DNA of 64,000 bases from a bacterium (GTDB lineage: Bacteria; CAIWAD01). The stretch covers positions 62,001 to 126,000 of the forward strand of contig JAUIFJ010000001.1 in NCBI GenBank assembly GCA_030429345.1. The letters are read 5' to 3'. This document shows, piece after piece, positions 1,391 to 64,000 of this stretch. Position 1 is the first letter of the stretch, and every line of letters begins with the position of its first letter. The notes below the pieces were generated by a model. The model ran no database searches and was not told the origin of the DNA. It saw nothing but the letters and a program-made list of their open reading frames with translations. A program made the translations under genes and the position numbers.

Positions 1391-3376
1391 TTGTCTTCCA
1401 CCAAGCTCTTCCTCACGCTCCTGGCAAGCCTCTGCCTTCTTGCGCCCGATTCGCGGGCCGAGGATCTACCGGATCTCCCCCCGCGCATCCAGCCTCCCCC
1501 CGTGCCCAGCGAGCAGCCGGACTGGATCTGTGATCACACCCGCCGGCTGACCAGCACCTTCTGCGAACTGCGGGGACGAAGGTATCACGCCGGCATCGAC
1601 TTGAGCACGCACGGCGGCGTAGGCCTGGAGCTGAAAGCGCCGGCGGATGTGGAAGTCGTGCGCATTTCCGCCGGCTTCTGGGGCTACGGCAAGCAGCTCA
1701 TGCTGCAGGACGAGGAAGGGCGCCAATACCTTTTCGCCCACCTGCTGGATTTCCGCGCCGACCTGGAAGACTACCTGCTCGAACACCAGCTGCGCGCGGA
1801 TCGCTATCGGCAGACCCTCTATCCTCCCGCCGGCCGCTTCCGCATTGCCCGCGGCGAGGTCTTCGCCCGCAGCGGTGACACAGGCTCCGGCCCGCCTCAC
1901 ATTCACATGGAAGTGCGCCGCGGCGGTTCCGTGGCCATCAATCCGCTACTGCAGGGATTCGGCCTGCCGGATTCCCGTCCACCCGAACTGGTCGAACTGG
2001 CGCTCTTCCCCGCGCAACACGGCGTAACCATCGAGGGCGGGCACCTGCCGCTGGTGCTGAAGCCGGAAAAGGATGGCTGGCAAGTGCGCAGCAGCGGACC
2101 GGTCTGGCTGGCCCTGCGCTGCCAGGACCGCATCAACGGCAGCAGCAGCCGGCTGGCTCCCTGGCGCATCGAGATCCTCCAGCAGGACAGTCTGCTCTTT
2201 CGCACGACCTTCGAGGAACTGCCCTTCGCCATGAATCACCAGGTCTGTGAGGAAGTCAATCGCTGGCTGCAGCTGCGCGAGAACAAGGTCTTCCACAACC
2301 TGATCCAGCCCGCCGGCGAGCTGCCCTTCGTGAGCCATCCGGATCCCGCGGAGACGCACGGCCCGGCGAGCCTGAGCCTCGATCCCGCGCAGAGCCCGGA
2401 ACTGATCCTGCGTGTGACAGATACGGTAGGCAACACCTCCGAAGCCCTGCTGCGGCTTCTGCCCGAAGATCCTGTGAAGCCGACACGGCAGGCTTCTGCT
2501 CCCTCCGTGAAGAGCCTCGAGATTCCCTGGAACCTGGACGAGCTCTGGCTGAGAGACGACACGGGAGTGCTGGGCGCTGCCTGGATGCATCACGGCCTGC
2601 AGCTGTCGGTACTGAAGAACGGGATCGAGAAAAGCTCGCCTCTTGCCCTGCGCGAAGGCGAAGGCAGCCTGGCCTTCCAGCTGACGGAATCGGACAGCAG
2701 CCTGGCCTTTCGCGCCCAGGCAGGGGAGTCGCGCAGCGACAGCCCGCTCTGGCACCTGCGCAGGCTGCGCGCCGGCCAGCCGGATCTGTATACGCTGGAG
2801 CTGGAGCAGGGACGCGCGCTGATCGGCAGCGAACGAAACAGCGTCGTAGAGGACCAGTGGATGCTGCTGCGGGAAGACTCCAGCGGCGTAGAGATCGGCC
2901 CCCTGAACCTGCGCCTGGTGCAGGAAGCGACCCTGGCGCTGCCTGTGCCCGATTCGCTGGCCCGGGCGCACACGCTGGGCAAGGCGGCGATCTACCACAA
3001 CGACGACGGCGACTGGGACTGGGCCGGCGGCGAGAGCTTCGGCGAAAGCCTCTCCGCGGAAATCGCCTGGCCTGGGCGGTATACGATCCTCGCCGACACC
3101 ACCGCGCCGCGGATCACGCCGCGCGGCAAGTGGCTGCCGGTCGCTTCCGTGTCGCCGGTCATCTCCTTCCGCTGCCGCGACGAGCGCTCGGGAGTGGCCG
3201 ATGTGCGCATGTGGATCGACGGCAAGCGCGTCATGGCCCGCTACGACCCGGAAGGCGATCGCGTACTCTACCGCCCGCGCCTCAACCTGCGCCCCGGCGA
3301 GCACGAACTGCGCATCGAAGCCGAGGACCGCTGCGGCAACCGCAGCGACATGAGCCTGGGCTTCCGGGTGGAATAG
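1391..3376 (+). CDS. exported M23 (LytM) family metallopeptidase with long beta-rich C-terminus
   Basis: A 661-residue exported protein. The signal peptide covers about residues 1-23. An M23/LytM domain follows (about 45-190) with its zinc and catalytic residues intact: H66 and D70 in HAGID, H117 in FAHLL, and the HxH pair H170/H172 in PPHIHMEV. Active members cut peptide cross-links in peptidoglycan. The remaining 470 residues look like several beta-sandwich domains, ending with an Ig-like segment rich in R/D/G; this is much longer than classical M23 enzymes. It does not end in a T9SS sorting motif. TTG at 1391 is the only start upstream of the signal sequence, since no ATG precedes it in frame after the previous stop; no strong ribosome site is visible, suggesting coupling to the upstream gene. 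Confidence 0.85.
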   Translation: MSSTKLFLTLLASLCLLAPDSRAEDLPDLPPRIQPPPVPSEQPDWICDHTRRLTSTFCELRGRRYHAGIDLSTHGGVGLELKAPADVEVVRISAGFWGYGKQLMLQDEEGRQYLFAHLLDFRADLEDYLLEHQLRADRYRQTLYPPAGRFRIARGEVFARSGDTGSGPPHIHMEVRRGGSVAINPLLQGFGLPDSRPPELVELALFPAQHGVTIEGGHLPLVLKPEKDGWQVRSSGPVWLALRCQDRINGSSSRLAPWRIEILQQDSLLFRTTFEELPFAMNHQVCEEVNRWLQLRENKVFHNLIQPAGELPFVSHPDPAETHGPASLSLDPAQSPELILRVTDTVGNTSEALLRLLPEDPVKPTRQASAPSVKSLEIPWNLDELWLRDDTGVLGAAWMHHGLQLSVLKNGIEKSSPLALREGEGSLAFQLTESDSSLAFRAQAGESRSDSPLWHLRRLRAGQPDLYTLELEQGRALIGSERNSVVEDQWMLLREDSSGVEIGPLNLRLVQEATLALPVPDSLARAHTLGKAAIYHNDDGDWDWAGGESFGESLSAEIAWPGRYTILADTTAPRITPRGKWLPVASVSPVISFRCRDERSGVADVRMWIDGKRVMARYDPEGDRVLYRPRLNLRPGEHELRIEAEDRCGNRSDMSLGFRVE

Positions 3377-3392
3377 GGCAGCGGCCCCTATT
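3372..3392. terminator. short inverted repeat between convergent genes
   Basis: AATAGGGC and GCCCCTATT pair (one bulged C) across the 11-base gap between the convergent M23 and protease genes. It overlaps both stop codons and could terminate in either direction, but no T-tract is obvious. Confidence 0.3.
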
Positions 3393-6300
3393 TCAGCAGG
3401 GTCATCTTCCTTGCCGCGCTGAAATCCCCCGCATGCAGCCTTAGCAGGTAGATGCCGCTGGAAAGCGCGGAGGCGTCGAAGCCCTGCGTGTGCTCTCCGG
3501 CGGGAAGCCGCTCTCCCTGAAGCAGACTGGCCACCTTCTGCCCTTGCAGATTGTAGACCTCCAGCCGTACCGTCCGGCTTTCGGCCAGGGAGAAGGCGAT
3601 GCGTGTCACGGGATTGAAGGGGTTGGGAACCGGCGCCTCCAGGGCGAAGCTTGCCGGTCGCGTATTCTCGTCTACGGAGACGGCGCCCACATGAAGATGC
3701 ACCGCCACACGGACCGGCTCCTGGCCCGTGTTGGCGCTCAGGACGACTTCGCCCTCGTAGTCGCCTTCCGGCAGCAGGCCGTTGATGGAATTGTAGACCT
3801 GCATCGGCAGATCGATCCCGCTTCCACCGGCCAGGATGCCGCTGCGCTGGGGCAGCTGCAGCCAGATCGGCGGCAGGATGTGTACGGCGTAGTCGTTCAC
3901 CGAACGCTCCATATGCTGTACGACAAATCCCAGGTCGTTTTCCGGTCCCTGCAGGCCGACGGTTCCCGAATCGCTGTCATCATCCGTAGCAGCCATGTCG
4001 CCATACTGCAGCGTGATCCGTCCGTTGGCCTCGAGGATGATCTGGAAAGTGAAGGGCCCGCCGTACTGTCCCTGGTTGTAGTGCGGCGCCTCGACCCAGG
4101 AAACGACCAGGCTGTCCCCGGACGCGTGGCGGAAGACATGCCCCTCCAGGTTGTCGTCTCCAAGAAGGTCGTCCCACCAGCCGCAGATCGCGTTCTCCGG
4201 CGCTTGCCCGCTCGGCATGGCGCCGCCGCTGTTGTTCCAGTGGTTCGCGTCATCCGTGAAGGAGATGTAGCCGTTGGGAGCGATGTAGTACGAGTCGTGC
4301 GTTTCCCCGTAGAAGGGGAAAGCGAAGGGAAGATCGAAGGGGCCGACGGGCGCGTCGTTCTGGACGAAGGCGACGGCGCCTCCCTCCTGCGTGATGTCCC
4401 GGAAAGCGACCTCCGGCCCGCCGGGCTCCTCGCTGTCGAGCCAGGTGTAGCCGAAGATGTCCGGTCCGCCGTCTTCGCGCGAACCGGAAGGACGCAGGGG
4501 CGTCAGCCCCTCGGGCAGCCAGTCGCCCAGGCTTTCCGCGCGCGCGCTCCAGCTGAGCAGTCCGTCGCCCGTGTTCGAAAAGGTGATGCTTCCCTCCGCC
4601 GTGTCCTCTTCGTCCGGGCTCAGCGTGAACCACAGGGGCGCGGGATCCACGGACAGGACCGCGTCCCCGGCAATGGAGGCGTCGCGGGTCGTGAAGCGGA
4701 TCGCGCGGACATCCGTGATCGGCTGGGCGGTCGGGTCCCAGGAATTGTAGTTGGTCAGGGTCAGCCCGACCCTTCCCGTGTGATCCTCGATGCCGATCGT
4801 GCAGTAGGGAAAGTCCTGGGCGTTCGTCTGGCTGTTGTTGAAGAGCTGGTATTGCATCACGAACTCGCCGTCACCGGTCGGGGTCGGGTAGACGGCGGGG
4901 TCGAGCAGGATCAGCTGGAAGGTGTTGATCTGGTTGTTCGAGTTTGTTCGCATGCGGTACCACTCGACGACGAAGAGGCCGGATTCGGGGAAAGAGGCCG
5001 TCGCCACCTGGGCATCGCCGATCAGCTTGTGGTCGTCCCACATGACGCCGATCATCGCTTCCGGCCCCATGCCGACGGGCATGTAGTGGTTGCGGAAGTC
5101 GCACTCCAGGTGCGCGTTGGTCCCGAAGGCCACGAAGCCGTTGGAGCACACGCTCATTTCATCATAGCTGCGGCCGTAGTACGTGAAGGGGAAGGGCAGA
5201 TCGACCATACGCGCGTCGTCCTGCTCGTCACCATGGTCGTCGAGCACCAGCTCGATTCCCGAACCGCCGGCGTTCGGCGCGATCTCGTTCCAGCCGTACT
5301 CCAGGGCCAGCGGCCAGTCGTCGTCGTCCTCGTAGGCATAGTAGCCGTAGGCGTCCGGACCGGTAGGCTCGGTGGGCTGTCCCAGTCCGACGCGCACGGG
5401 CAAATGCATCTCGCTCCAGGGGCCCTCGGGCGAGGTCCAGCGCACAAGCAGCGACTCCGTGTACCCGGGGACGGCATCCCCGGAGGCGGTCACATAGAAC
5501 TGCAGGTCCGTCGTCGTCTCGCCCGCGGCAAGCGTGAGACTTTCCGTGCCGCTGGCGACACTGAGCGGAGAACCCTCCGGAAAGCCGGACAGGATCTCAA
5601 GGTCCACCGCGTCCGCCGTTCCCGCATTGAGCACCTCGAAGGCGATCAGCTCCGTGTTCCCCGGCTCCAGGGTCTGCTGCCAGGGGTTGTGATCCAGCAG
5701 GACAAGGTGCGGACTGGCCAAGTCGAGTTCCTCGGAGAACTCCGCCAGCACCGTCTCGTCGCTGCGCAGCGTCAAGCGCAGGTCCAGGAGGTCGTGATCC
5801 ACCAGGGTCGGGAAGAGACTGAAGACGAAAGGACTGTTGATGAAGGCCGCCTCGGCCGGCCCCAGGTCAGGCAGGGGCTGTGTGGCGGTCGTGACGACAC
5901 CCGCCCCGTCTTCCAGCTCCAGCTCCAGGCTGAGGTTGCTCAGCGGCATGCCCATCGCCTGGACGCGCACGTTCAGCTCATAGTCGCCGCCGGGCACCAG
6001 CGGGCCGGTGTGATCCAGAACCTGCAGGGCCGTCACCTCGGGCAGCAGGTCGCCGCCGATCGACAGGTCCTCGAGGGCCGGCAGGAAGTCGGCCTTGCTG
6101 GCCGTGATCTGTAAAGGCTGGAACTCGTCCAGCTCGGGCAGGGCAAAGGTGATCCATCCTTCGGCATCGCTCGTGCCGAGCAACTGGAAGCCTCCCGGCT
6201 GGCTCAGGCAGACCGCCGCTCCCTCGACGGGTGGCCCCAGGGCATCGATCACCTGCAGGCTGAGCGAGGTGGCATTGGAGGCGAGCACATCCGGAGTTTC

Positions 6301-8022
6301 GATGATCGCAAGATAGTCCGGAACACCCAGCCAGACCGGCATGCCGGGGTCGCCCATCAGGTTGGCCCAGTAGCTGAAGCTGTTGACATTGGGGTCCCCG
6401 GAGGGCAGCGTGCGATAGAGTTCGTACTTGCCGCGAAACATGGCCGTGCCCACTTCGCGAATGTCGTAATGCAGCAGCGCCGAATAGAAGCCGCCGCAGA
6501 CCAGGTTGTTGTAGGCCGTGTGCGTGTTCAGAGTGCAGAAGCCCATGGCCGCGGCGCCCCCGCCGGGAGTGGCCGGATTGCCGGCGCGCAGGAAGGCTTC
6601 CGTGAAACAAGGATCCTGGCTGTTGAAGGTTCCGGATCCACAAGTGAAGATCACGGAAATCGGCGTGCGATTGCCCTGGGCCAGCGACAGGACCTGGTTC
6701 GTGTTCAGTCCCTCCATGCCGTAATAGCCGCGATAAGTGTGGAAACTGATGCCGGCGTTGTACCAGCCGTATACATAACTGGGACTGTTGGCGCAGAAAG
6801 CCGTGTCGATCTGCGTGTAGCCGTGGTCGTTGACCATGTCGATGGCCACGCTGCGCGAGAGCTGGCTCATGCTCAGGCCGCAGTGGCCGGCCCCCGTCAG
6901 GAAGGAGGCGCGCTGCAGCCAGTCCGTGTTCAGCATCTCCGGATCGAGCTCGTAGGCCAGGATCTTGTTGAAGATCGTCGTCATCGAGGTCGAGTTGCGC
7001 GCCGGAATCCGACCGACGACCAGGTCCGCCAGCACGTCCCCCGTGATGTTGGCGTAGTAGTGGTCGTACTGGTTGCCGTGTGTCGGCAGATTGTAGCTGC
7101 CGCCGTCCGCGTCTCCCAGCAGGAACACATAGTCCGGCGGCGTGTCACTGTTGTAGGCCTCGACGATCGCGGCGCGAATGCCGGTGGTGGTGAAGGACAG
7201 GTCGGCCTCTGTCAGCTGGTCCACCGGGTGGCCCTTGCGGTTCTTCCAGGCCAGCCAGTTCTGGAAGGCAGGATTCGACTGGGCGACCGCCGAGCCGATC
7301 ACCAGGTAGCGCAGCGGCAGGGACGGCGACTCCCAGCCGATCTCGCTCAGAGCTCCCTCCGCGGAAGGCGGCAGGAGCACCTGGTCCCGCAGGAAACCGC
7401 TGAAGAGCGAAGAGGCGGGCATTTCGCGCTGCAGCTCGTTGATGGAGGGTTCCGTGTTGTACTCCACGACCAGCTCGACGCGGCGCAGGGCCTGCAGTTC
7501 CCGGCTGACCGGATTCCAGCGCAGGGGATGCAGGTCGAGCTTCAGAAGGCGTGTATCACGCAGCAACATCGGTTCTCCGATGCGCGCCGTCGCCTCCGGC
7601 CAGAAGGCGTCCCGCGCATAGAGCTCCTCGTCCTCGATCCAGGGAAGCGGCAGGTCCGCCGGGGTATGCAGCCGTTCCTGTTCCGGCGTGATCCAGGCGC
7701 TGGGCATGGACTCCCACTGCTCCTCGACCACGACCAGTTCCGCGCCGCCTGTCGCCGGCATGGCCAGCAGACGGCTGATCAGCGGCAGGTCCGGCGCGCC
7801 CGGCCGGCCGATGGAAGCGCCTTCCTCGATCCGGTAGACCCACTCGGCATCTTCCTGCACAAGCTCCGGCAGAGGCAGATCCATGCTGAGCCGCAGCCCG
7901 TCCTCCGCCGGATGCCAGTCGATGATTTCGTGTGCCAGGGAAGGGGCGCCGGTCGCAGGTGCGGAAGACGCAAGGGCTCCGCACAATAGCAGGGCGCAGG
8001 GAAACGGACTGGATCGAAACAT
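3388..8022 (-). CDS. gingipain-like C25 cysteine protease with T9SS sorting domain (copy A)
   Basis: A secreted 1,544-residue protease. Layout: signal peptide (1-25), a propeptide-like region (30-230), a peptidase C25 domain (about 235-570), Ig-like segments, two related beta-sandwich modules (around 900-1120 and 1190-1390, each with an NGF/Y...F and WWDDL- or MWDDH-type motif), and a C-terminal T9SS type A sorting domain (about 1465-1544) with NPFNP and a GIYLLRL strand. The likely catalytic pair is H428 (SFHTYRG) and C461 (VIFTCGSG), placed as in gingipains. The cell probably secretes it through the T9SS and anchors or releases it after cleavage of the sorting domain. ATG at 8022 has AAGAGG seven bases upstream. 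It is a clear paralogue of the gene at 8098-12744, in tandem on the same strand. Confidence 0.9.
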   Translation of the reverse strand: MFRSSPFPCALLLCGALASSAPATGAPSLAHEIIDWHPAEDGLRLSMDLPLPELVQEDAEWVYRIEEGASIGRPGAPDLPLISRLLAMPATGGAELVVVEEQWESMPSAWITPEQERLHTPADLPLPWIEDEELYARDAFWPEATARIGEPMLLRDTRLLKLDLHPLRWNPVSRELQALRRVELVVEYNTEPSINELQREMPASSLFSGFLRDQVLLPPSAEGALSEIGWESPSLPLRYLVIGSAVAQSNPAFQNWLAWKNRKGHPVDQLTEADLSFTTTGIRAAIVEAYNSDTPPDYVFLLGDADGGSYNLPTHGNQYDHYYANITGDVLADLVVGRIPARNSTSMTTIFNKILAYELDPEMLNTDWLQRASFLTGAGHCGLSMSQLSRSVAIDMVNDHGYTQIDTAFCANSPSYVYGWYNAGISFHTYRGYYGMEGLNTNQVLSLAQGNRTPISVIFTCGSGTFNSQDPCFTEAFLRAGNPATPGGGAAAMGFCTLNTHTAYNNLVCGGFYSALLHYDIREVGTAMFRGKYELYRTLPSGDPNVNSFSYWANLMGDPGMPVWLGVPDYLAIIETPDVLASNATSLSLQVIDALGPPVEGAAVCLSQPGGFQLLGTSDAEGWITFALPELDEFQPLQITASKADFLPALEDLSIGGDLLPEVTALQVLDHTGPLVPGGDYELNVRVQAMGMPLSNLSLELELEDGAGVVTTATQPLPDLGPAEAAFINSPFVFSLFPTLVDHDLLDLRLTLRSDETVLAEFSEELDLASPHLVLLDHNPWQQTLEPGNTELIAFEVLNAGTADAVDLEILSGFPEGSPLSVASGTESLTLAAGETTTDLQFYVTASGDAVPGYTESLLVRWTSPEGPWSEMHLPVRVGLGQPTEPTGPDAYGYYAYEDDDDWPLALEYGWNEIAPNAGGSGIELVLDDHGDEQDDARMVDLPFPFTYYGRSYDEMSVCSNGFVAFGTNAHLECDFRNHYMPVGMGPEAMIGVMWDDHKLIGDAQVATASFPESGLFVVEWYRMRTNSNNQINTFQLILLDPAVYPTPTGDGEFVMQYQLFNNSQTNAQDFPYCTIGIEDHTGRVGLTLTNYNSWDPTAQPITDVRAIRFTTRDASIAGDAVLSVDPAPLWFTLSPDEEDTAEGSITFSNTGDGLLSWSARAESLGDWLPEGLTPLRPSGSREDGGPDIFGYTWLDSEEPGGPEVAFRDITQEGGAVAFVQNDAPVGPFDLPFAFPFYGETHDSYYIAPNGYISFTDDANHWNNSGGAMPSGQAPENAICGWWDDLLGDDNLEGHVFRHASGDSLVVSWVEAPHYNQGQYGGPFTFQIILEANGRITLQYGDMAATDDDSDSGTVGLQGPENDLGFVVQHMERSVNDYAVHILPPIWLQLPQRSGILAGGSGIDLPMQVYNSINGLLPEGDYEGEVVLSANTGQEPVRVAVHLHVGAVSVDENTRPASFALEAPVPNPFNPVTRIAFSLAESRTVRLEVYNLQGQKVASLLQGERLPAGEHTQGFDASALSSGIYLLRLHAGDFSAARKMTLLK

Positions 8023-8062
8023 GGTACCTCTTGTTTCCGGCGGACTCGAAGGCCCGAAAGCA

Positions 8063-8090
8063 GAACGCGGACCCTGCCGGGTCCGCGTTC
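8063..8090 (-). terminator. hairpin terminator between the two C25 protease genes
   Basis: A perfect 12-bp stem, GAACGCGGACCC with GGGTCCGCGTTC, and a four-base loop, just after the stop of copy B and before the start of copy A. On the minus strand it is followed by a weak T-rich stretch (CTGCTTTC). Termination here would let the two paralogues be expressed independently. Confidence 0.65.
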
Positions 8091-8097
8091 TCGTGTT

Positions 8098-11000
8098 CTA
8101 TTTCAGCAGCAGGACCCGTTGTGTCCGGCTCTCACCCTGGACCTGCAGGCGCAGGAAGTAGACGCCGCTGGCCAGTGAACTGCCGTCGAAGCGTGCCAGG
8201 TGCCTGCCCGCCGGCAGTTCCTGGCTCTCGACCAGGCTCAGCACCTTGCGTCCCTGGATGTTGTATACATCCAAACTCGCCCGCCGGGCGGCCGGCAGCA
8301 CGAAGGGAACCGTGGTCACGGGGTTGAAGGGGTTCGGCCAGGCCTTGCCCAGCACGATGCCCTCCGGCAGGGAGGGCGTCTCCCCGGCGGAGGTCGTTCC
8401 AAGACTCAGGCCGATGGGAAGAAACAGCTCTCCTCCGCTGGCGGAACCAATGCGCAATTCGGCCATGTAGTCGCCGGTGGGCAGCAGTTCCTGCACAGGC
8501 GCGTTGTGAGCATGCAACACGATGAAGCCGTCTTCCATGGGCGGCACGATCCCGCCGGAATCCTCCAGCTGCAGCCAGAAGGGCGGCAGCACGCGCACGG
8601 TATAATTGTCCGCCACCTGGCGCAGGTGGTGGATCACGAAACCGCTCTCGTCATTCGGGCCCTGCAGGCCCATGGTCCCGGAATCGCTGAGCGGGTTCCC
8701 GCTGTTCATGTCGGCCCACTGAATGGTGATCCGGCCATTGCGCTCAAGGATGATCTGGAAGGTGAAGGGCCCGCCGAAATCCTCGGGATCGAAATGCGCC
8801 GCCTCGACCCAGCTCACGACCAGGCTGTCTACTCCCGCGCGGTAGCTGACCTGGTCGTTCATCGCCTCGTTGTTCAGCAGGTCGTCCCACCAGCCGGCGA
8901 TCGAGTTCATCGGCGCGTCCTCGTGGGGCATGCCGACGGCATTGTACCACAGGTTGCGCGTGTCGCTGAAACTGATCCAGCCGTTGGGGTTGATGTAGAA
9001 CTCATCAAAGAGCTGCCCGTAGAAGGGGAAGTCGAAATCCAGCGCGAAGGGACCCGCCGTGGCATCGTTGTGCTCGAACTCGACCGCCGTATCCGTCTCC
9101 GCGACCGGAATCCAGGAGAAGAGCGGTCCGCCCTCTTCTTCCGAGTCGATCCAGGTATAGCCGGCGCTGTCCGGGCCGCCCTGGTCGCGCCCCGTGTTCC
9201 GCGCCATGCCCAGCTGCGGCCAGTCCTGCGGCACGGCGACGGAGGCGCTCCAGTTCAGGAAGCCCTCGCCGGCATTGTGGAACCAGACCGTGTCGCGGGC
9301 GCTTTCGGTCTCCGTGTCACTCAGCGTGAAGTGCAGGCCGGCCGTCAACTCCTCGAGCAGACCGTCGGCGCCGCCCTCCACCGGTCGCACCGTGAAGAGG
9401 ATTGCCCGGCCGCCGTTCTCGTCGATCTCCGTGGCCGTGTCGTTCCACAGGTTGTAGTTGACCAGGGTCATGCCTCGTGTCGCCGTGTGATCCTTCAGGC
9501 CGATCGTGCAGTAGGGATAGTCCTGGTCGTTGTCCTGTGTGTCATCGAAGTCCGCGTACTGGTAGATGAACTCGCCCTCGCCGCTTTCGTTGGGCCAGTG
9601 CGCCGGGTCGAGCAGGATCAGCTGGAAGGTGTTGATGCCGTTGCTCGAGTTGGCCCGCATGCGGTACCACTCGACGACATAGCGATGGTTGGTCTCGTCG
9701 TACCAGGTGCAGACTTCCGTATTCCCTCCCAGGTAGTGGTCGTCCCACATGACGGCCAGCATGGGTTCGGGCCCCATGCCGATCGGCAGGTAGTGGTTGC
9801 GGAAATCGGTTTCCAGGTGCGCCCAGGGGCCGAAGCTGACGAAACCGTTGCTGCAGACGCCCATCTGAGTGTATTCCTCTCCGTAGAGGCGGAAGGGAAA
9901 GGGCAGGTCGACCAGGGCGGCGTCATCCTGCTCGTCGGCGAAATCCGTGAGCTCGAGCGCCGTGCCCGGCCCGCCCTCTTCCGGGGCGATCTCGACCCAG
10001 TCGTATACGGGCGCCAGGGGGTGGTTGTCCGTATCCTCGATGGCAAAATAGCCGTAGGCATCGGCGCCTGTCGCCTCGCTTTCCGTGCCGACTCCCGTGC
10101 GCAGGGCGACCTGGAAGTGGCCGCGAATGCCGTTGGAATCGGTCCAGTTCACCTTCAGGAACCCCTGCTGACCGTTCCAGGCTTCCTCGTGCGCCGTCAC
10201 CTCGAAGACCAGCTGCTCGCTGGCTTCTCCCTCGTTGAGCTCCAGTTCGACCGGGGTCTCGTCCACGGAGAACCAGGCGCTTCCGCCGAAGCTCGGCGTG
10301 AGTGTGAGACTCGCCGGGCGGTTGCCCGTGTTGCGTACGGCAATGCGCAGATCGTCGCTGTCGCCGGGCTCCAGGGTCAGGCCGTCTACATCCGGATCCT
10401 CCACCGTGAGCCAGGGTCGGCTGAGCGTCGTCTCGAAGCCCAGTTCCGTCGTGTCTCCAGCAGCAGCGTGCCAGGCGCGGAAGAAGAGGGCCTCGCGGTC
10501 CGAGATCGAATCGGCGAGTGTCACCTGCAGAATGCCGCTGACCAGGGAGCCCCCGGCGGGAATCGCGTCAATGGCGAGCACCTCCGGGGAAACAACCGCG
10601 CTGCCCGGCTCGCACTCGAGGAACAGCGTGCCGGCCGGCGTGTCGATGTCCGCGTTGTTGTCCAGGTCCAGCACCAGGTCGTGCGTCGAGCCCGGCAGCA
10701 GCTCCTCGGCCGTTCCTCCGTCCCACAAAGCGTTGAGAAGGGCCAGGCCTCCGCCCACCTCCTGCACGCTGCGGTCCTCCAGGGCCGGCACGTAGTTGTC
10801 GCGCGTGGCCGTGATCTGCAGGACCTGGCCGGTGTCCACGGCATCCAGCGGGAAGGCCGAGCGGCCGCTGGCGTCACTCAGCTGCACCAGCTGCAGGCCG
10901 CCGGCCTGGTAGAGGCAGATCGCCGCGCCTTCCACGGGCTGACCCTCGGCATCTGTCACACGCAGGTCGAGGAAGCCGGCGTCGGTGGCGACGACTTCCG

Positions 11001-12744
11001 GCAGGTTGTCGAATTGCAGCACGCCCGGAACGCCGACCCAGAGGTTCATGCCCGGGTCGCCCATCAGGTTGGCCCAGTTGCTGAAGGTCTCGATGTTCTC
11101 GTCGCCGGCGGGCAGGTTCATGTAGAGTTCGTACTTGCCGCGATACATGGCCGTGCCGACCTGGCGAATGCCGTAGTCGAGCAGGCCGGACCAGAAGCCG
11201 CCGCAGACCTGGTTGTTGTAGGCCGTGTGCGTATACTGCGTGCACAGGCCCATGGCCGCCGCGCCTCCGCCGGGATTGGTCGGCAGGCCGGCGCGCAGGA
11301 AGGCCTCCGAGTAGGCCGGTTCGTAGTTGGGGTCGGCGAAACTGCCCGAGTTGCAGGTGAAGATCACGCTGATCGGCGTCCGGTTGCCCTGGTTCATCGC
11401 CATGACCTGTGTGCGGTTCAGGCCTTCCATGCCGACCCAGCCGCGGTAGTTGTGATAACTGATGCCGCTGTTGTACCAGCTGAAGACATAGTTCGGACTG
11501 TCGGCGCACCAGGCCGTGTCGAGCTGCGTGTAGCCCTGCCCGGAGACCAGCTGGTAGCCGATGCTGCGGCTAAGCTGCTTCATGCTCATGCCGCAATGCC
11601 CTGTTCCCGTCAGGAAGGAGGCGCGCTGCAGCCAGGAAGGATCCTCCAGGTCCGGGTTCAGTTCGTACTCGAGGATCTTGTTGCAGATGGTGCTCAACTG
11701 GGTCGAGCTGCGCGCCGACAGGCGTCCGACGACCACGTCGGCCAGGATGTCGTTCCCGGCGATGGCGCTGTAGAAATGATCGTACTCGCTTCCATAGGTG
11801 TCGAAGGAAAAGTGTGTCGGCAGCTCGTAGCTGCCACCGTCGGCGTCGCCCACAAGTGTCACATAATCCGGTGGAGTGTCGGAATCGTAGGCATCCGCAA
11901 TGGCGCTGCGGATGGCGTTGCGCGACCACTGCGGTATATCCTGTTCCGTGAGGATCTCGATGCGGTGTCCCTTGCGCCGCTTCCAGTCCAGCCAGTCGTT
12001 GAAGCGGTCATTGTCGAAGGCGTCCGTGTCCGCAATGACCAGGTAGTTCATCGGCAGGGTGGCGCTCTGCCACTGGATGTCCCTCAGCGCGCCTTCGCTT
12101 TCCATGCGCAGCAGGTGCTCGTTGCGCGCGTGCCAGGCATCGAAGAGCGGGGACTCCGGCGCGTGATCCAGCGCGTTCAGCAGGTTCTCGCCCTCGAAGT
12201 GTATACGCAGACTTAATTCCCGCAGGGCGAGCACTTCGCCGCTGACCGGATTCCAGCGCAGGGGGGCGATGCCCAGCTTGACAAGGCGCAGGTCGCGCTG
12301 GATCGCCGGGTCGGAGACGCTCAGCCATTGCTCCGGCCAGTGCGCGTCCACGGAGAAGATGGATGGATCCTCGAGCCAGGGCTGCGGCCCTTCATCGGCG
12401 CGATGGGTGCGGTCCTGGTGCGGCCGCACCTGCCGGCTTCCGAGGCTCTCCCAGTGCTCGTCCAGGATTTCCAGGCGGATTCCCGCGCGAGCCGGAATCT
12501 CCACCAGGCGATTGACCAGCGGCAGGTCCGGAGCGCCGGGTTGTCCCAGCAGGCCTTCTCCGGCAAAGCGGTGAATCGTCCCGCCGTCCAGCAACTGGAC
12601 TTCGCAGTCCGGAAAGCTGAACTCAAGGGTCATTCCCTGCGAGCCGCTTTCCAGCTGCCGGCAGCCAAGGCTCGCCTGTGCAGACACTGTACACATCAGT
12701 AAGGCAAGGCTCAGCCAACCTGCCCGGAACCAGGTGAAGAACAT
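8098..12744 (-). CDS. gingipain-like C25 cysteine protease with T9SS sorting domain (copy B)
   Basis: A 1,548-residue paralogue of copy A. The open frame extends 51 codons further upstream, but the ATG at 12744 begins a typical signal peptide (basic/aromatic start, LSLALLMC core, cleavage near AQA) and gives nearly the same length as copy A. The C25 domain is conserved: the VGDADGGSYELP segment, the predicted catalytic histidine about residue 431 (SYHNYRG) and cysteine about 464 (VIFTCNSG). The two beta-sandwich modules are also conserved, and the C-terminus carries the sorting domain with NPFNP and a GVYFLRL strand. The two copies match over their whole length but differ at many positions, so this is an old duplication. 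Likely role: extracellular protein degradation or processing of other T9SS cargo. Confidence 0.9.
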   Translation of the reverse strand: MFFTWFRAGWLSLALLMCTVSAQASLGCRQLESGSQGMTLEFSFPDCEVQLLDGGTIHRFAGEGLLGQPGAPDLPLVNRLVEIPARAGIRLEILDEHWESLGSRQVRPHQDRTHRADEGPQPWLEDPSIFSVDAHWPEQWLSVSDPAIQRDLRLVKLGIAPLRWNPVSGEVLALRELSLRIHFEGENLLNALDHAPESPLFDAWHARNEHLLRMESEGALRDIQWQSATLPMNYLVIADTDAFDNDRFNDWLDWKRRKGHRIEILTEQDIPQWSRNAIRSAIADAYDSDTPPDYVTLVGDADGGSYELPTHFSFDTYGSEYDHFYSAIAGNDILADVVVGRLSARSSTQLSTICNKILEYELNPDLEDPSWLQRASFLTGTGHCGMSMKQLSRSIGYQLVSGQGYTQLDTAWCADSPNYVFSWYNSGISYHNYRGWVGMEGLNRTQVMAMNQGNRTPISVIFTCNSGSFADPNYEPAYSEAFLRAGLPTNPGGGAAAMGLCTQYTHTAYNNQVCGGFWSGLLDYGIRQVGTAMYRGKYELYMNLPAGDENIETFSNWANLMGDPGMNLWVGVPGVLQFDNLPEVVATDAGFLDLRVTDAEGQPVEGAAICLYQAGGLQLVQLSDASGRSAFPLDAVDTGQVLQITATRDNYVPALEDRSVQEVGGGLALLNALWDGGTAEELLPGSTHDLVLDLDNNADIDTPAGTLFLECEPGSAVVSPEVLAIDAIPAGGSLVSGILQVTLADSISDREALFFRAWHAAAGDTTELGFETTLSRPWLTVEDPDVDGLTLEPGDSDDLRIAVRNTGNRPASLTLTPSFGGSAWFSVDETPVELELNEGEASEQLVFEVTAHEEAWNGQQGFLKVNWTDSNGIRGHFQVALRTGVGTESEATGADAYGYFAIEDTDNHPLAPVYDWVEIAPEEGGPGTALELTDFADEQDDAALVDLPFPFRLYGEEYTQMGVCSNGFVSFGPWAHLETDFRNHYLPIGMGPEPMLAVMWDDHYLGGNTEVCTWYDETNHRYVVEWYRMRANSSNGINTFQLILLDPAHWPNESGEGEFIYQYADFDDTQDNDQDYPYCTIGLKDHTATRGMTLVNYNLWNDTATEIDENGGRAILFTVRPVEGGADGLLEELTAGLHFTLSDTETESARDTVWFHNAGEGFLNWSASVAVPQDWPQLGMARNTGRDQGGPDSAGYTWIDSEEEGGPLFSWIPVAETDTAVEFEHNDATAGPFALDFDFPFYGQLFDEFYINPNGWISFSDTRNLWYNAVGMPHEDAPMNSIAGWWDDLLNNEAMNDQVSYRAGVDSLVVSWVEAAHFDPEDFGGPFTFQIILERNGRITIQWADMNSGNPLSDSGTMGLQGPNDESGFVIHHLRQVADNYTVRVLPPFWLQLEDSGGIVPPMEDGFIVLHAHNAPVQELLPTGDYMAELRIGSASGGELFLPIGLSLGTTSAGETPSLPEGIVLGKAWPNPFNPVTTVPFVLPAARRASLDVYNIQGRKVLSLVESQELPAGRHLARFDGSSLASGVYFLRLQVQGESRTQRVLLLK

Positions 12745-12916
12745 CGATCGTCCCAAAGATGAAAACTGGTGAAGCAACGGTCGCTTGAACGCAAACCCTG
12801 TGCCTGAAGAACAGCGTTCTACCTTGACCGTCTCGGTTTGTTCGATTTCCGAAGAAACTCCCCTCCACAGAGGGCAGAATCCAGGGAATTCGTCCAAAAT
12901 GCGAAAGGAAAGGAAA

Positions 12917-12959
12917 GCGGACGCGTGGGTTCTTTCAGGAAAGAGCCGCCCGCGTCCGC
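12917..12959 (-). terminator. nested hairpin terminator for the chemoreceptor gene
   Basis: Outer arms GCGGACGCG (12917-12925) and CGCGTCCGC (12951-12959) enclose an inner TCTTTC/GAAAGA stem. On the minus strand the structure is followed by a TTTCCTTTCCTTTC tract. It lies 90 bases after the stop of the chemoreceptor gene, in the 304-base gap before protease copy B. The rest of the gap shows no gene. Confidence 0.65.
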
Positions 12960-13048
12960 CGGATTCCGATCAGGCTGTTTCAGATTCCAGCCATTGAGTA
13001 GCGATTTGCTTCCAGTTTTCCGGAAATCATGCCTCCCGGAAAAGCCCG

Positions 13049-16000: not shown

Positions 16001-16534
16001 CGGATGGGCGACATAGATTGAAGCGCCCCCTTGCTCCCTCTCGAGAACGGCGGCATAGGTGTCCTGATCACTGTAAGCCAACACGGCCCAGGCGCCGACT
16101 TCGAAATCGCTGACCAGGGCGTCTTCCGGAAAGAGGGGGTGCTGACTGGCAAGACGCCAGGAGTAGCCGGCTTCCTCGCCCAGGTCGGCGGCCGCCTGAC
16201 GGGCGAATTCCAGCGGGCGGGGCATGACCTCCTGCACGTCCCGGCGAATGCGATTGTATTCGATCAGATCATTCTCGATCTGTCGACTAAGAACATCCGC
16301 CTGGCGATGCGCCATTGCCAACTGGTTGCTTACGAATTGTTCCTGAAGGATTTCCTTGGTGAATTTCTGGGTCAGCATGCGCTGGCGACCCGCCAGATTG
16401 ATGATCCTGGCATCATCCGACTGCGACTGCAGAATGGAAATGCTCAGCACGACCGTCGCCACCATGGGAGCAAGAACGATCGCTGAAGCAAACATCATTT
16501 TATACAGGATGGGCAGATCAAGCAGCTTCTTCAT
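13049..16534 (-). CDS. methyl-accepting chemotaxis protein with tandem HAMP array
   Basis: A 1,161-residue membrane chemoreceptor. ATG at 16534 is preferred over the upstream extension because GGAGAG precedes it and a membrane anchor follows. Order: TM1 (about 16-34); a periplasmic part beginning with a PilJ/NIT-like helix ([13 protein letters not shown], about 45-57) and then a Tll0287/DUF3365-like sensor region (about 80-215); TM2 (about 347-366); a canonical HAMP (367-420); a run of HAMP-like units (about 420-720) marked by repeated GELGEAF or GELAEAF motifs alternating with ARxIAAxRL motifs; two more HAMP-like segments (about 750-845); and an MCP signalling hairpin with the conserved tip near 945-985 ([18 protein letters not shown]). 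The tail ends in a very acidic DEDDDFFDF. It should control a CheA kinase, but no che genes are present here. Confidence 0.9.
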
Positions 16535-19588: not shown

Positions 19589-19607
19589 AAAGGCAGAACC
19601 GAACACA

Positions 19608-19640
19608 AGGGCCTCCCGACCGGGAGGCCCTTTCTCTTTC
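19608..19640 (+). terminator. intrinsic terminator of valS
   Basis: AGGGCCTCCC (19608-19617) pairs with GGGAGGCCCT (19622-19631) over a GACC loop, followed by TTCTCTTTCT. A classical rho-independent terminator 20 bases after the valS stop. Confidence 0.9.
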
Positions 19641-19717
19641 TACCGCTTGCGTCGCGTTTGTTCTGCCGAATGCCGAAGCGTATATTCGGTCTTTCTGTCG
19701 CGAATGGACTCTTCCGA

Positions 19718-51538: not shown

Positions 51539-53983
51539 ATGCCAAAACTTGTGAACAGAATGTGGGTTCGAATCCTGATTCTTTTGGGATTCGGACCTCT
51601 CTCTTTCGCGGCGACCGTGCTAGTTCCCCAGGAGTTCCCGACGATTCAGTTGGCCTTCGACGCCAGTTCTTCAGGGGACACCGTACTTGTGGCTCCCGGC
51701 GTATACCAAGAGCACTTGATCGCCCCCAACCACGGCATCCTGTTGACCTCGTATTACCCAATGACTCGGGATTCCAGCGACTGGTTGAGCACTGTCCTAG
51801 ATGGCGGCAGCACTGGAACTGCCCTTGAAATTGAGACAACGCAAGGAGAGTGGTTTCGATTGAAGGGCTTCGTTGTGAGAAATGGCAGCGGATCTGAACA
51901 GGCGGGGGGCGTTCACTGCGCTTGCCAGGAAGACGAGATTGGCTGTAGGATCCAACTTGAGTCTGTCATGTTCTCAGAGAACGTATCTCACGGTTGGACT
52001 ACTGGAGCGCTTCATGTTTCTGGAAACACAAGAAGCCTGGTGTTGAATAACTTGGTGTTCGTTAATCCCGAGTTCGGCAATCTGTCTTTGGTATCCACCT
52101 TGTCCGAGTTGGCACTGATCGATTCGGTTTCATTTTATGGCAACGGATTGACGGGTGACCCTGGCGGATTCAGTGCGGACTCTGTTTCTTGCTCAAGTAT
52201 ACACGTTGAGGACTTCCTCTTGGAACAATACGGGAAGTTCAGGGTTGGCGGATTCCACTTCGCTCAAGTCGATAGACTCGTAGTTCAGAATAATGTGTCC
52301 CGTTCTGGGCGTATTGCCTCACTTGGCAGTTCGGAGGGAACGTTACGAATCCGGAACCTGAAGTTTACAGACAACAGGTTGGAAAGAAACATAAGTGACG
52401 ATCGCGACGAGATCTCTCTGCAACTGAGCGCTGCCCATATCGACATCGACACATTGATCGTAGAGCGCAATAAAACGGCTATCGAAGGCATTTTGTCCAT
52501 CCAGCAATCCCAGGACGGCGCACTTCAGAATCCGCCCGGCATCGTCAACAATTTGATCTTCCGAGACAACCAGGCGGGGGATTCCGTGAATTACGACATG
52601 GGCTGGAACGGCCGGCTGGCCGAGATCTGGCGCTGCGACATCCGTAACAGCTTCTTCCAGAACAACCTCTCCGTCCTGCCGATCACGCAGCCCGGATCAG
52701 GATGGTACGCCCGAGGGGGCGCCCTATTTTTCTGGCAACAGGAAAACGACACCGTCACCATCGAGAACACCGAATTCAGCAACAATCTCATGCTGGATTT
52801 CGATGACTACTCCACGCTCCCGCTTGAGCAAATCGGGGGAAATTTCGGTCGGGCACTTTACATCCATTTCTCTGAGAGTGCCCCACTGACTCTTCGCAAC
52901 TGCGTCTTCCATGATAACCGCCAGAACCAGCATTGCCCGGAAACGGACTACTTCTACAGCCTGGGCGCCACCGTATACGCACACATGATGGTCGGCACAG
53001 CCACGCTGATCGTCGAGGACTGCTCCTTCACGGACAACGACGACGGCGGCCTGCAAACCTACCAGCTCGGCACGACTCTCGTGCGCAACAGCATCTTCCG
53101 GGACAATGCCCGCTACGGCCTGTACCTGGCCGGCAACCGCTCGCAGATCCACAATGTGAGCGTCAGCGGCACCGTGGCGCAGGACATCACCAATACATTC
53201 CTGCCCAGCAAGCAGGCGCCGATCCTGCAATTCACCCAGCCGCACCCGCCGGTCATCCGCAATGTGACCGTGACCGGGAACGAGACGGAATCCCTCGTCC
53301 ACGCCAACTACCAGCCCAGTCCGCAGACCCTCATTGAAAACAGCCTCTTCCGGGGCAACACCTACCAGCAGATCCAGGCCGCCGTCGGGGATCCGGAAGA
53401 AGACCTGCCGGCCCTGTTCCGCTATTGCCTGCTGCCCGAGGAGGTCCCCGTCGGGGAGGACAATCTCGTTGGCGAGGATCCGCTCTTCCATCAGGAGCTG
53501 GGCGCGCCCTGGCTGGCTTCGGTCTCTCCCTGCGTCGATGCGGGGGATCCGGACTCCGAGCGCAACGACCGGGAGGATCCGGAGAATCCTGGCATCGCCC
53601 TCTGGCCCAGCCAGGGTGGGCTGCGCAATGATATCGGCTTCACGGGCGGTCCCTGGGCCCAAGGGCTGGATCATCTGGTGGCGGTGGAAGAACCCGCAGC
53701 GGAAACCCCATTGCGTCCGTCGAGCCTGCGCCTGGAACCTGCCGCGCCCAATCCCTTCAACCCGGCGACTTGGCTGCGCTTCCATCTTCCCCAATCGACA
53801 GATGTGCAGCTGGATGTCTACAATCTGCGGGGGCAACGGGTTCGCCAACTGCTTCATGCCGAGCTGCAGGCCGGAGAGCATTCCCTGCTCTTCGACGCCG
53901 GAGAGCTGGGCAGCGGCCTGTATCTGCTGCGCTTGGAATCCGGCGGATCGGTTGCCACCGGCAAGGTGATGCTGATTCGCTGA
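51539..53983 (+). CDS. T9SS-sorted right-handed beta-helix protein (copy 2, mosaic composition)
   Basis: An 814-residue paralogue that starts six bases after copy 1. It has a signal peptide (cleavage near FAA, residue 25), the same beta-helix entry (VPQEFPTIQLAFDASSSGDTVLVAPGVYQEH), a long repeat body and a sorting domain (NPFNPATWLRF, VYNLRGQRVR, GLYLLRLE). The first kilobase is AT-richer and the second half is GC-rich, with the switch around 52.5 kb. The bodies of the two copies differ widely while the linker and sorting domain start are nearly identical. This suggests module swapping onto a conserved export tag. Confidence 0.83.
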   Translation: MPKLVNRMWVRILILLGFGPLSFAATVLVPQEFPTIQLAFDASSSGDTVLVAPGVYQEHLIAPNHGILLTSYYPMTRDSSDWLSTVLDGGSTGTALEIETTQGEWFRLKGFVVRNGSGSEQAGGVHCACQEDEIGCRIQLESVMFSENVSHGWTTGALHVSGNTRSLVLNNLVFVNPEFGNLSLVSTLSELALIDSVSFYGNGLTGDPGGFSADSVSCSSIHVEDFLLEQYGKFRVGGFHFAQVDRLVVQNNVSRSGRIASLGSSEGTLRIRNLKFTDNRLERNISDDRDEISLQLSAAHIDIDTLIVERNKTAIEGILSIQQSQDGALQNPPGIVNNLIFRDNQAGDSVNYDMGWNGRLAEIWRCDIRNSFFQNNLSVLPITQPGSGWYARGGALFFWQQENDTVTIENTEFSNNLMLDFDDYSTLPLEQIGGNFGRALYIHFSESAPLTLRNCVFHDNRQNQHCPETDYFYSLGATVYAHMMVGTATLIVEDCSFTDNDDGGLQTYQLGTTLVRNSIFRDNARYGLYLAGNRSQIHNVSVSGTVAQDITNTFLPSKQAPILQFTQPHPPVIRNVTVTGNETESLVHANYQPSPQTLIENSLFRGNTYQQIQAAVGDPEEDLPALFRYCLLPEEVPVGEDNLVGEDPLFHQELGAPWLASVSPCVDAGDPDSERNDREDPENPGIALWPSQGGLRNDIGFTGGPWAQGLDHLVAVEEPAAETPLRPSSLRLEPAAPNPFNPATWLRFHLPQSTDVQLDVYNLRGQRVRQLLHAELQAGEHSLLFDAGELGSGLYLLRLESGGSVATGKVMLIR
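53572..53767 (+). repeat. 196-bp direct repeat, copy 2
   Basis: Partner of 51121-51316, with mostly silent differences. The high identity restricted to this segment points to recent duplication or gene conversion between the adjacent genes. Confidence 0.88.
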
Positions 53984-56197: not shown

Positions 56198-56250
56198 TTG
56201 TATCTCACGCTGCCCGGATGTATACTTTACCCTTCCGGTACAAAACCGGA
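56198..56250 (+). promoter_or_regulatory. carA promoter and leader hairpin over the ribosome site
   Basis: TTGTAT (56198-56203) and TATACT (56221-56226) are spaced by 17 bases, a good sigma-70-like promoter. The predicted transcript starts about 56233, exactly where a perfect hairpin TCCGGT-ACAAA-ACCGGA (56234-56250) begins. Its 3' arm contains the first bases of the GGAGAG ribosome site, with the ATG at 56257. This may limit initiation of carA. No pyrimidine- or arginine-specific motif was recognised. Confidence 0.5.
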
Positions 56251-56256
56251 GAGCAC

Positions 56257-57387: not shown

Positions 57388-60599
<3,212 letters not shown>

Positions 60600-61187: not shown

Positions 61188-61229
61188 CGCCGCCCCCCGC
61201 CCCTGTCACACGGAAATCGAAAGAGCCCC

Positions 61230-61571
61230 ATGAAACTGCTGCTGATCGTCCTCAACAAGGAGGAACTGCTGGATGACCTGATCCAGGCCTTCCTCGAGGT
61301 CGACGTGCGCGGAGCGACCATCGTGGACAGCGTGGGCATGGGGCGCATCCTGAGTCACGACATCCCCATTTTCGCCGGGCTGAAGGGCCTGCTGTCCGGC
61401 AACCGGCCGCACAACAAGACCATCCTGACCGTCGTGCAGGACGAGCAGGTGGAACCCATCGTCCATGTCTTCGAGGAAGTGGTCGGACCGGTCTCCGAAC
61501 CGGGCAACGGGCTGCTCGTCGCCCTGCCGATCGCCTCCGTATACGGCATGGGTCATCACGGCCCCATTTGA
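61230..61571 (+). CDS. PII-like signalling protein
   Basis: A 113-residue small protein resembling PII-like domains: KLLLIVLNKEELLDDLIQAFLEVDVRGATIVDSVGMG, with a later core strand (VEPIVHVFEEVV). It lacks the classical GlnB T-loop sequence, so it should be called PII-like only. It may bind a nucleotide or be partnered by the adjacent EIIA. AAAGAG lies before the ATG. Confidence 0.65.
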   Translation: MKLLLIVLNKEELLDDLIQAFLEVDVRGATIVDSVGMGRILSHDIPIFAGLKGLLSGNRPHNKTILTVVQDEQVEPIVHVFEEVVGPVSEPGNGLLVALPIASVYGMGHHGPI

Positions 61572-61604
61572 ACCACGGGCGGCCGAAGCAATGAAACACG
61601 CACC

Positions 61605-62381: not shown

Positions 62382-63115
62382 GTCGCGAGCTGCTCCGCCT
62401 TTCGCTCTGGATTCCGGTAGCCGCGATCCTCTTCGTCCCCGTGGGCGAGCATGGAGGCATTGCCGCGCGCCTGGCGGCCATCGGGGTGGCGCTCCTGATC
62501 GGCCTGCCCGGCTGGCTGCTCAGTTCCGGTGCGGAACGCCGCGAACTCTATCCCCTGCAGGCACCGCCGCTGGCCTCCCTGCTTCCCCTGCTTTCACTTG
62601 CCGTCGGATTGCAGGGAGTCTTCGGCTGGCTCGATCGGCTGTGGCCGCTGCCGCTGGAACGGGCCCTGCGCATGGCCGACTCCTTCCGTGTCGAGTCGGC
62701 GCTCGAGCAGGCCCTGCTGGTCTGCGGCGTTCTTCTGGCAGCGCCCCTGATGGAAGAGCTCTTCTTCCGCGGCTTCCTGTATACGCAGCTGGAGCGGCTG
62801 CGCGGGCCCCTCTTCGCGGTCTTCGGCAGCGCGCTCTTCTTCGCCCTGCTTCATCTGAACCCCTGGCACTTCCCGGCCCTGCTGCTATTGGGGCTGCTGC
62901 TGGCCGTGCTTCGAATCGTCTCACGCAGTCTCTGGCCGGCGATCGTGGTACACGCGGCCAACAACGGCATTGCGCTGCTGGTCCTGCAGCGTCCGGAACA
63001 CCCGCTGCTGGACTGGATCCACGCAATGGGCGCGGGAGGCCCGGGGACTCCGCTGCTCCTCGGTCTTCCGGGAGCCATCTGGCTGCTGATCCGGCTGCGC
63101 GAGTTCCGCGGCTGA
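62378..63115 (+). CDS. CPBP-family intramembrane metalloprotease
   Basis: A 245-residue membrane protein with about seven helices. The catalytic motifs EELFFRG and later H in LLHL and VVHAANNG match the CAAX protease and bacteriocin-processing (CPBP) family. GTG start at 62378 overlaps the methyltransferase stop. Substrate unknown. Confidence 0.85.
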   Translation: MSRELLRLSLWIPVAAILFVPVGEHGGIAARLAAIGVALLIGLPGWLLSSGAERRELYPLQAPPLASLLPLLSLAVGLQGVFGWLDRLWPLPLERALRMADSFRVESALEQALLVCGVLLAAPLMEELFFRGFLYTQLERLRGPLFAVFGSALFFALLHLNPWHFPALLLLGLLLAVLRIVSRSLWPAIVVHAANNGIALLVLQRPEHPLLDWIHAMGAGGPGTPLLLGLPGAIWLLIRLREFRG

Positions 63116-63141
63116 ATCGGAAATGGCCGGGCGATCAGGGC

Positions 63142-64000
63142 CTATCGTTTCGGGTAATACTCCTGCAGGCAGCTTGCCAGGGCCTCGTGGCGGAAGCGGC
63201 CGCCTTCGCGGAGCCAGCGGGCGGGCTCCACGAAGGAGCCGCCCAGCAGCAGGTCCGCCTCCAGACCCAGCAGGGGCGCCATCAGGCGCAGGGCGAAGGG
63301 GGGGGCGGGAGGAATCCAGGGCCGGCCGAAGTGGCGGCGCAGTTCGCGCATGAACTCGCGGTTGGCCAGGGGCTGAGGGGAGCTGGCGTTGTATACGCCT
63401 TCCGCCTCTCCCTCGAGAAGGCGGCAGGCCATGTCGCACAGGTCGTCCACGGAGATCCAGGACATGCCCTGCCGGCCGCTGCCCAGCGTGCCGCCCAGGA
63501 AAGCCCGTGTAATGGCGGAAAGCCTCGGCAGGGCGCCATCTTCCTTTCCGAGCACGACCGCAATCCGCAGCGTAATGCCGCGAATGCCTTCCGGACGGGC
63601 GCGGCGGAAGGTCTCTTCCCAGTCCTGGCACAGGCGGGCGTAGAAGTTTCCGCCCGGCTCGCTGTCTTCCGTGACACGGGTCGCTCCGGGGTCCCCGTAA
63701 TAGCCGATCGCGCTGGCCTGGAGCCAGCTGCGCGGAGGAGAGGAACAGTCGGCCAGCGCTTTTCCCAGCAGCGCCGTGGGCTGGAGGCGCGAGGAGCGCA
63801 GGAGCAGCCGGTTGGCTTCCGTGAGACGCACATCGATCCGGCTGCCGCAGAGGTTGACCAGGGCCGCGGCGCCCTCCAGGCAGGCTTCCCAGTCTCCGCG
63901 CTTGCGGCCGTCCCATTCCTGCCAGTCCCGTTCGCCCGTGGGGCGGGAGCGGCTGAGGATCAGCGGCTGCCAGCCATTTGCGGCAAGCGCGTCCGCCAGG
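63142..64000 (-). CDS. TIGR01777 family NAD-dependent epimerase/dehydratase (5' end beyond window)
   Basis: The frame is open to the right edge, so about 17 N-terminal residues, including the glycine-rich cofactor motif, lie outside. Reading from the edge gives LADALAANGWQPLILSRS, then a W-x-x-W segment, LVNLCGSRID and SAIGYYGDPG, which match TIGR01777 proteins (YfcH-like). The C-terminus resembles the DUF1731 segment (RRHFGRPWIPPAPPFALRL). These proteins are epimerase-like; the substrate is unknown. It converges with the CPBP gene. Confidence 0.85.
   Translation of the reverse strand, partial: LADALAANGWQPLILSRSRPTGERDWQEWDGRKRGDWEACLEGAAALVNLCGSRIDVRLTEANRLLLRSSRLQPTALLGKALADCSSPPRSWLQASAIGYYGDPGATRVTEDSEPGGNFYARLCQDWEETFRRARPEGIRGITLRIAVVLGKEDGALPRLSAITRAFLGGTLGSGRQGMSWISVDDLCDMACRLLEGEAEGVYNASSPQPLANREFMRELRRHFGRPWIPPAPPFALRLMAPLLGLEADLLLGGSFVEPARWLREGGRFRHEALASCLQEYYPKR

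Follow-up and report, generated by a model that had tools for sequence, protein, structure and literature searches.

Why some genomes amass thousands of short palindromes has been an open question since HIP1, the highly iterated palindrome (HIP) GCGATCGC. HIP1 and the alternate HIPs of cyanobacteria are tied to matching methyltransferases, and a methylation-linked origin has been proposed for them (PMC4390886). In Ralstonia, GTWWAC adenine methylation includes GTATAC as one of four words (PMC11460718), and sites of the form GT-N3-AC are typical of FadR-subfamily GntR dimers, with GT-N2-AC found in other groups of that subfamily, e.g., UxuR (PMC4494728). Here we describe an excess of GTATAC, and of the spaced palindrome of which it is one form, in a 64,000-nucleotide stretch of bacterial DNA (hereafter the window; positions 62,001 to 126,000 of contig JAUIFJ010000001.1, assembly GCA_030429345.1) and in the genome to which it belongs, G000, which comprises 4.24 Mb in 92 contigs from an uncultured lineage. 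The genomes compared with it are draft metagenome-assembled genomes (MAGs), gene calls are of a simple codon-score type, and the survey table holds 386 genomes sampled across the domain.

The window contains exactly 37 copies of GTATAC, the number that a first-pass annotation of this DNA had estimated by eye, and all 18 copies that it located individually are correctly placed. Base composition predicts 7.3 copies, in line with its figure of 7-8, while order-2 and order-3 Markov models predict 3.4 and 11.7, and under both models GTATAC is the top over-represented hexamer. An order-4 model predicts 33.6, because GTATA (44 copies) and TATAC (42 copies) are almost confined to GTATAC in the window. 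The enrichment also holds over 0.7 Mb of G000 and in genome-wide counts, where 1,793 copies of GTATAC stand against 128 of CATATG, the reversed palindrome of identical letters to which GTATAC was compared in the survey. This ratio of 14.0 is the highest among the 386 genomes; three sister-genus genomes of 3.0-3.6 Mb each hold 23, 16 and 21 copies of GTATAC. Independent recurrence was considered for four other genomes with high ratios (G043, G147, G258 and G282) and rejected, since their ratios are high because CATATG is rare there and not because GTATAC is raised: GTATAC lies near expectation in all four, and the spaced motif described below is likewise flat in G147, G282 and G258.

In a 428-kb sample of G000, GTATAC is read in all three codon phases (99, 67 and 12 copies), and 31 of 209 copies fall outside called genes, as the first-pass annotation had observed on the smaller scale. 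Codon-aware shuffles, in which synonymous codons are permuted while the protein, the codon totals and the neighbouring letters are held fixed, yield 39 copies in coding DNA where 178 are observed, which bears out the earlier argument and excludes codon, codon-context and amino-acid bias as the cause of the excess. Synonymous choice bends towards completing the word, with rare codons placed where it results: the Tyr codon TAT is used at 84% in the context G_AC versus 5-30% elsewhere, the Ile codon ATA at 43% in the context GT_C versus 1-10% elsewhere, and the Val codon GTA at 45% before TAC versus 5-8% elsewhere. Val-Tyr pairs number 263 in G000 versus 167 expected by composition arithmetic, and 156 versus 166 in G001, a relative of the same class. 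Among 54 pairs of orthologs from G000 and its relatives, the alignment is free of gaps at 34 of 35 GTATAC sites and 92 of 97 spaced sites, amino-acid identity at the site codons is 0.57 for GTATAC and 0.50 for spaced sites (overall average 0.57), and many sites require a residue to have been replaced, e.g., Ile-Tyr or Val-Phe by Val-Tyr. The sites therefore originate by substitution, and the pressure extends to protein sequence; insertion of ready-made copies is ruled out by the same alignments.

The first-pass annotation had proposed that it is the DNA word itself that is under pressure. This holds, in that the enrichment spares no reading frame or strand and extends through genes, gaps and the whole genome, but the hexamer GTATAC turns out not to be the unit. 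When shuffles of G000 and G001 were compared, the words enriched in G000 and not in G001 included GTGATAC (88 vs 10.9 expected), GTGAGAC (84 vs 16.1), GTGTGAC (92 vs 21.9), GTGTCAC (95 vs 23.3) and GTAATAC (27 vs 4.5), and their common design is YGT, three letters and ACR, as in CGTGTGACA, CGTGAGACA and CGTGATACG; the first of these flanked words occurs 34 times in G000 versus 1.2 expected. The real unit is YGT-VWB-ACR together with YGT-AT-ACR, of which GTATAC is the form with a 2-bp spacer. In the coding DNA of G000, YGTVNBACR occurs 459 times versus 100 expected, an observed-to-expected ratio (O/E) of 4.6, and YGTATACR 107 times versus 14. Both GT and AC are required (O/E of one-letter variants 0.56-1.11), lone half-sites are not enriched (YGTN6, O/E 0.98), and the pyrimidine before GT and the purine after AC count on both sides. 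Half-site spacings of 1, 4, 5, 6 and 7 give O/E values of 0.8-1.3, so that the enriched spacings are 3, and 2 only when the spacer is AT; other 2-bp spacers are flat (477 vs 491). Within the spacer, VWB is preferred (427 vs 54), as is AT (162 vs 20), and TCG falls below expectation (15 vs 29). In a genome-wide survey YGTSWSACR gave G000 the top ratio, at 1,958 vs 316.

Both forms together amount to 1.55 sites per kb, which extrapolates to roughly 6,500 sites in G000. They are spread evenly, with an O/E of 4.4 in coding DNA (644 vs 147 over 269 genes) and 3.6 in short intergenic gaps (29 vs 8), a between-gene dispersion of 1.22, and gaps between sites that are near Poisson (coefficient of variation 1.23). 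Strand or position bias, which the first-pass annotation had raised, did not appear: the strands are equal (GTGAGAC 42, GTCTCAC 42), and there is no positional trend along genes. Analysis of the gaps between sites in G000 likewise showed no regular spacing, preferred distance or cooperative pairing. Enrichment is weaker in the prophage-like contigs C26, C24 and C57, with 14 sites versus 7.6 from shuffles and about 33 expected at the host ratio, and the mobile-looking contigs C43, C62 and C86 are enriched to near the host level. Phages of this host were sought through the 5-methylcytosine (m5C) enzyme of the prophage; that enzyme led to a widespread phage family in which none of 80 loci reaches the density of G000 by simple count.

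Relatives of G000 bear narrower or weaker versions of the motif. In G004, which belongs to a different family of the same class and has 54% GC, a 65-kb sample holds YGTGATACR 12 times versus 1.4, with GTATAC not in excess. A 246-kb sample of G003 holds YGTGTCACR 19 times versus 3.0 and YGTGATACR 10 times versus 1.2, G001 is weak (VWB spacer 32 vs 21), and G002 lacks the motif (VWB spacer 10 vs 9.4). Genome-wide counts of YGTGATACR against its reversed control, on both strands, follow the same gradient: 552 vs 15 in G004, 549 vs 24 in G000, 104 vs 7 in G003, 41 vs 10 in G001 and 22 vs 21 in G002. Among the 386 surveyed genomes only the class of G000 stands out, the density of YGTGATACR being 290 per Mb in G004 and 130 in G000, with 37 the next highest found. 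One class thus spans strong and broad (G000), strong and narrow (G004, GTGATAC), intermediate (G003), weak (G001) and no enrichment (G002), a natural experiment in which the responsible gene could be looked for by presence or absence and by co-variation. A search for congeners in GTDB contigs by valS returned distant matches only, the best at 52% identity in a Calditrichaeota MAG. We also note that two unrelated genomes, G184 (79 vs 6) and G331 (22 vs 0), have high ratios of YGTGATACR to control at low density.

Several other words depart from expectation. GTTTAC/GTAAAC, one letter away from GTATAC, is almost missing from G000 (4 vs 27) and normal in G001 (18 vs 15). The pair CGTGATCC/GGATCACG occurs 145 times versus 51 in the coding sample of G000 despite a broken AC half-site, which may reflect either a looser version of the site or an unrelated codon-pair effect. 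The same sample strongly avoids GACGTC (30 vs 103) and ACGTCG (88 vs 212), the former more strongly than G001 does (79 vs 118), and this could be restriction avoidance. ACCGGTA/TACCGGT is over-represented in the G004 sample (38 vs 14.5).

In the window, the sequences around the 37 GTATAC copies are mutually unrelated. Flanks TGTATACG surround the copies at 2788-2793, 12201-12206, 21494-21499, 27510-27515, 62779-62784 and 63391-63396; GGTATACG those at 3079-3084 and 58373-58378; CGTATACA those at 6769-6774, 20212-20217, 27600-27605 and 47472-47477; and TGTATACA those at 8263-8268, 33133-33138 and 42090-42095. Flanks CGTATACG are found at 10003-10008, 21230-21235, 21588-21593, 39604-39609, 42295-42300, 47108-47113, 52973-52978 and 61539-61544. 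The remaining copies have flanks CGTATACT (11231-11236), CGTATACC (25294-25299, 51701-51706 and 60509-60514), GGTATACC (27987-27992), TGTATACT (31784-31789 and 56220-56225), GGTATACA (36041-36046, 44550-44555 and 48221-48226), TGTATACC (40461-40466 and 49868-49873) and AGTATACA (51467-51472 and 52197-52202). The form with the 3-bp spacer, YGTVNBACR, contributes 89 nine-base sites between 242 and 63828, across the whole window. Their first bases lie at 242, 2411, 3602, 3917, 4284, 5034, 5175, 7552, 8943, 9741, 10719, 10954, 11723, 13493, 13547, 13983, 14348, 15420, 15695, 17465, 17520, 17947, 17966, 18199, 18790, 18900, 19098, 19412 and 19510; at 21058, 21222, 23428, 23633, 23706, 25074, 25129, 25457, 25654, 26838, 27159, 28623, 28851, 29521, 29908, 29975, 30062, 31667, 32087, 32570, 32684, 33005, 35099, 35150 and 35836; at 40312, 41195, 41294, 42360, 42426, 43709, 45062, 45211, 47306, 47333, 47814, 50129, 51430, 54367, 54408, 54506, 56393, 56884, 57216, 57358, 57926, 58295, 58703, 59450 and 59605; and at 60473, 61204, 61736, 62318, 62354, 62917, 62944, 63432, 63670 and 63820.

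The first-pass annotation had also remarked that few or no copies fall in the chemoreceptor and valS genes. This is correct for GTATAC, which is absent from both the chemoreceptor gene (13049-16624, minus strand, with a methyl-accepting chemotaxis protein signalling domain) and valS (16718-19588, plus strand), but not for the full motif, with 6 YGTVNBACR sites in the former (1.7 expected at the genome-wide ratio) and 10 in the latter (9.5 expected). The GTATAC-free interval, 12,201-20,212, has a Poisson probability of about 0.02. Elsewhere in the window, positions 3388-12897 encode two neighbouring gingipain-like (peptidase C25) proteins with propeptides and Por secretion tails.

To account for these observations, we tentatively favour, at somewhat less than an even chance, a reading in which a symmetric DNA-binding factor, probably a dimer, recognises a word found all over the chromosome, with GTATAC as one of its forms. 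Such a factor would recognise the half-sites YGT and ACR at a distance of 3 bp, with a preference for V-W-B, or of 2 bp in the case of an AT spacer. Its roughly 6,500 sites would have built up through point substitution, evenly in genes and intergenic DNA, because a site brings a small benefit wherever it lies or because repair or transfer is biased towards it. What the counts and alignments show is the word family with its symmetry, spacer rules, even spread, substitutional origin and lineage pattern; the dimeric reader and its role are inferred. The role of this probably dimeric reader would be chromosome-wide (organisation, repair or self-marking) and not gene regulation. A bolder version would have one abundant dimeric DNA-binding protein whose operator has come to shape the entire chromosome: the roughly 6,500 sites of GntR/FadR geometry would have become fixed, in coding and non-coding DNA, in part through replaced amino acids, and related lineages would differ in the spacers that they accept. 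This is possible but doubtful.

The first-pass annotation had named a nucleoid or segregation protein among its candidate readers, and this fares well in one respect: the geometry of the site would best suit a dimeric DNA-binding protein, nucleoid-type or other. The protein itself is a proposal, and no such protein was found. Several further points weigh against a dimeric reader. To our knowledge, no nucleoid protein has driven such enrichment within coding DNA, and sites this uniform would be expected just as much from a process driven by mutation or transfer. Searches of G000 for GntR and RHH_1 proteins yielded no reader: no RHH_1 protein and no FadR-type GntR candidate turned up, and the sole GntR is a small protein with a YtrA/MocR-like DNA-binding domain that adjoins an ABC transporter gene, as do its orthologs in G001-G003. 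The subfamily of this GntR has GT and AC far apart (PMC4494728).

An orphan methyltransferase was another reader put forward in the first-pass annotation. As proposed for the HIPs, the enzyme would modify the site in part, and the word would be ratcheted up by repair directed by methylation or by some other step that depends on it. The density and whole-genome spread of the sites do resemble HIPs (PMC4390886), and the DNA methyltransferases of G000, several in number, include a PF01555 enzyme that looks like an orphan (L007) and a PglX-like one (L090). Nevertheless, no methyltransferase tracks the motif in the four Pfam families searched (PF01555, PF02086, PF00145 and PF07669; other families lay outside the search), and motif-free G002 has orthologs of both L007 and L090. 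The five distinct m5C enzymes group into an RM-type (restriction-modification) unit (L080), near-copies of a Vsr-methyltransferase-Eco29kI unit (L087 and L088) and a phage-type orphan present in three copies. Methylation of GTWWAC was rejected, as the sister words GTTAAC and GTAAAC are not enriched, and a site that admits two spacer lengths and only certain spacer letters is unlike a type II pattern. We consider a methylation word unlikely. Regarding the enzymes themselves, L087 (C26) and L088 (C24) lie in near-identical clusters of Vsr, m5C methyltransferase and Eco29kI-type endonuclease genes; L090 (C13) is a PglX-like/Eco57I-type adenine methyltransferase whose homologs (L091-L093 among them) extend across the family's four genomes; and in the two paralogs L072 (C62) and L076 (C86) a D12-class adenine methyltransferase domain heads a long protein (>790 aa), which also occurs in G001 and G002.

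A context-dependent mutation or repair bias, e.g., a mismatch-repair or short-patch enzyme acting on one strand at near-matches, could make the word without any function. The uniform enrichment across genes and intergenic DNA, the tendency of one-letter variants to mild depletion and the involvement of amino-acid replacements would all suit such a bias. It is rather unlikely, however, given that a bias able to single out a spaced palindrome of 9 bp, with its Y/R rule at either flank, would in turn depend on a symmetric protein specific for the site, and that no single neighbouring word has been emptied to feed the excess, apart from the rare GTTTAC. Over-repair by Vsr in particular was rejected: the Vsr genes belong with the Eco29kI-type RM system, and the near-matches show no emptying.

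DNA uptake sequences of the Neisseriaceae and Pasteurellaceae occur in hundreds to thousands of copies, have variants between relatives and are spread by drive or selection. A comparable uptake or self-recognition signal, also raised in the first-pass annotation, would require competent cells to prefer word-bearing DNA for uptake or recombination, with molecular drive spreading the word. The G000 word resembles uptake sequences in its copy number and lineage variants, is dense and independent of gene and strand, has sets that differ between related species, and is lower in the prophage-like contigs C26, C24 and C57, the other mobile-looking contigs being near the host level. It differs as a short palindrome, known uptake words being longer and non-palindromic. 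G000 has ComEC, but so does motif-free G002, and none turned up in motif-bearing G003 (these drafts being incomplete); the gene does not track the motif and neither supports nor excludes this explanation, which we regard as improbable. Finally, the codon-aware shuffles, the unrelated flanks of the copies and the genome-wide extent of the enrichment allow us to dismiss with near certainty that base composition, codon usage, repeats or the assembly produced the excess as an artefact.

Among described systems, the palindromes of Caldithrix (PMC5317091) and the matches in a spaced-motif survey (PMC5217627) are different motifs. HIPs come closer: like them, the G000 word is a short palindrome found genome-wide at about one per kb, inside and outside genes, and gained and lost between close relatives (PMC4390886). 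It shares their strong genome-wide over-representation but is not a contiguous, fixed word. HIPs are contiguous, mostly GC-rich and without variable spacer letters (GCSGC apart), whereas the G000 word is spaced, with two spacer lengths and a degenerate spacer; HIPs have matching methyltransferases, while none was found for the G000 word in the four Pfam families. Unlike the Ralstonia GTWWAC set, G000 is not enriched in the other words GTTAAC or GTAAAC. Its palindromic GT-N2/3-AC layout with a short flanking preference is instead that of GntR/FadR operators (PMC4494728), although these number a few promoter sites per regulator and the G000 sites number thousands, mostly in coding DNA, with coding and intergenic O/E alike and no cognate FadR-type GntR in the genome. 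The phenomenon in G000 is HIP-like, but it concerns a different kind of word, one whose operator-like geometry, as opposed to a contiguous methyltransferase word, points to a class of reader other than that proposed for HIP1.

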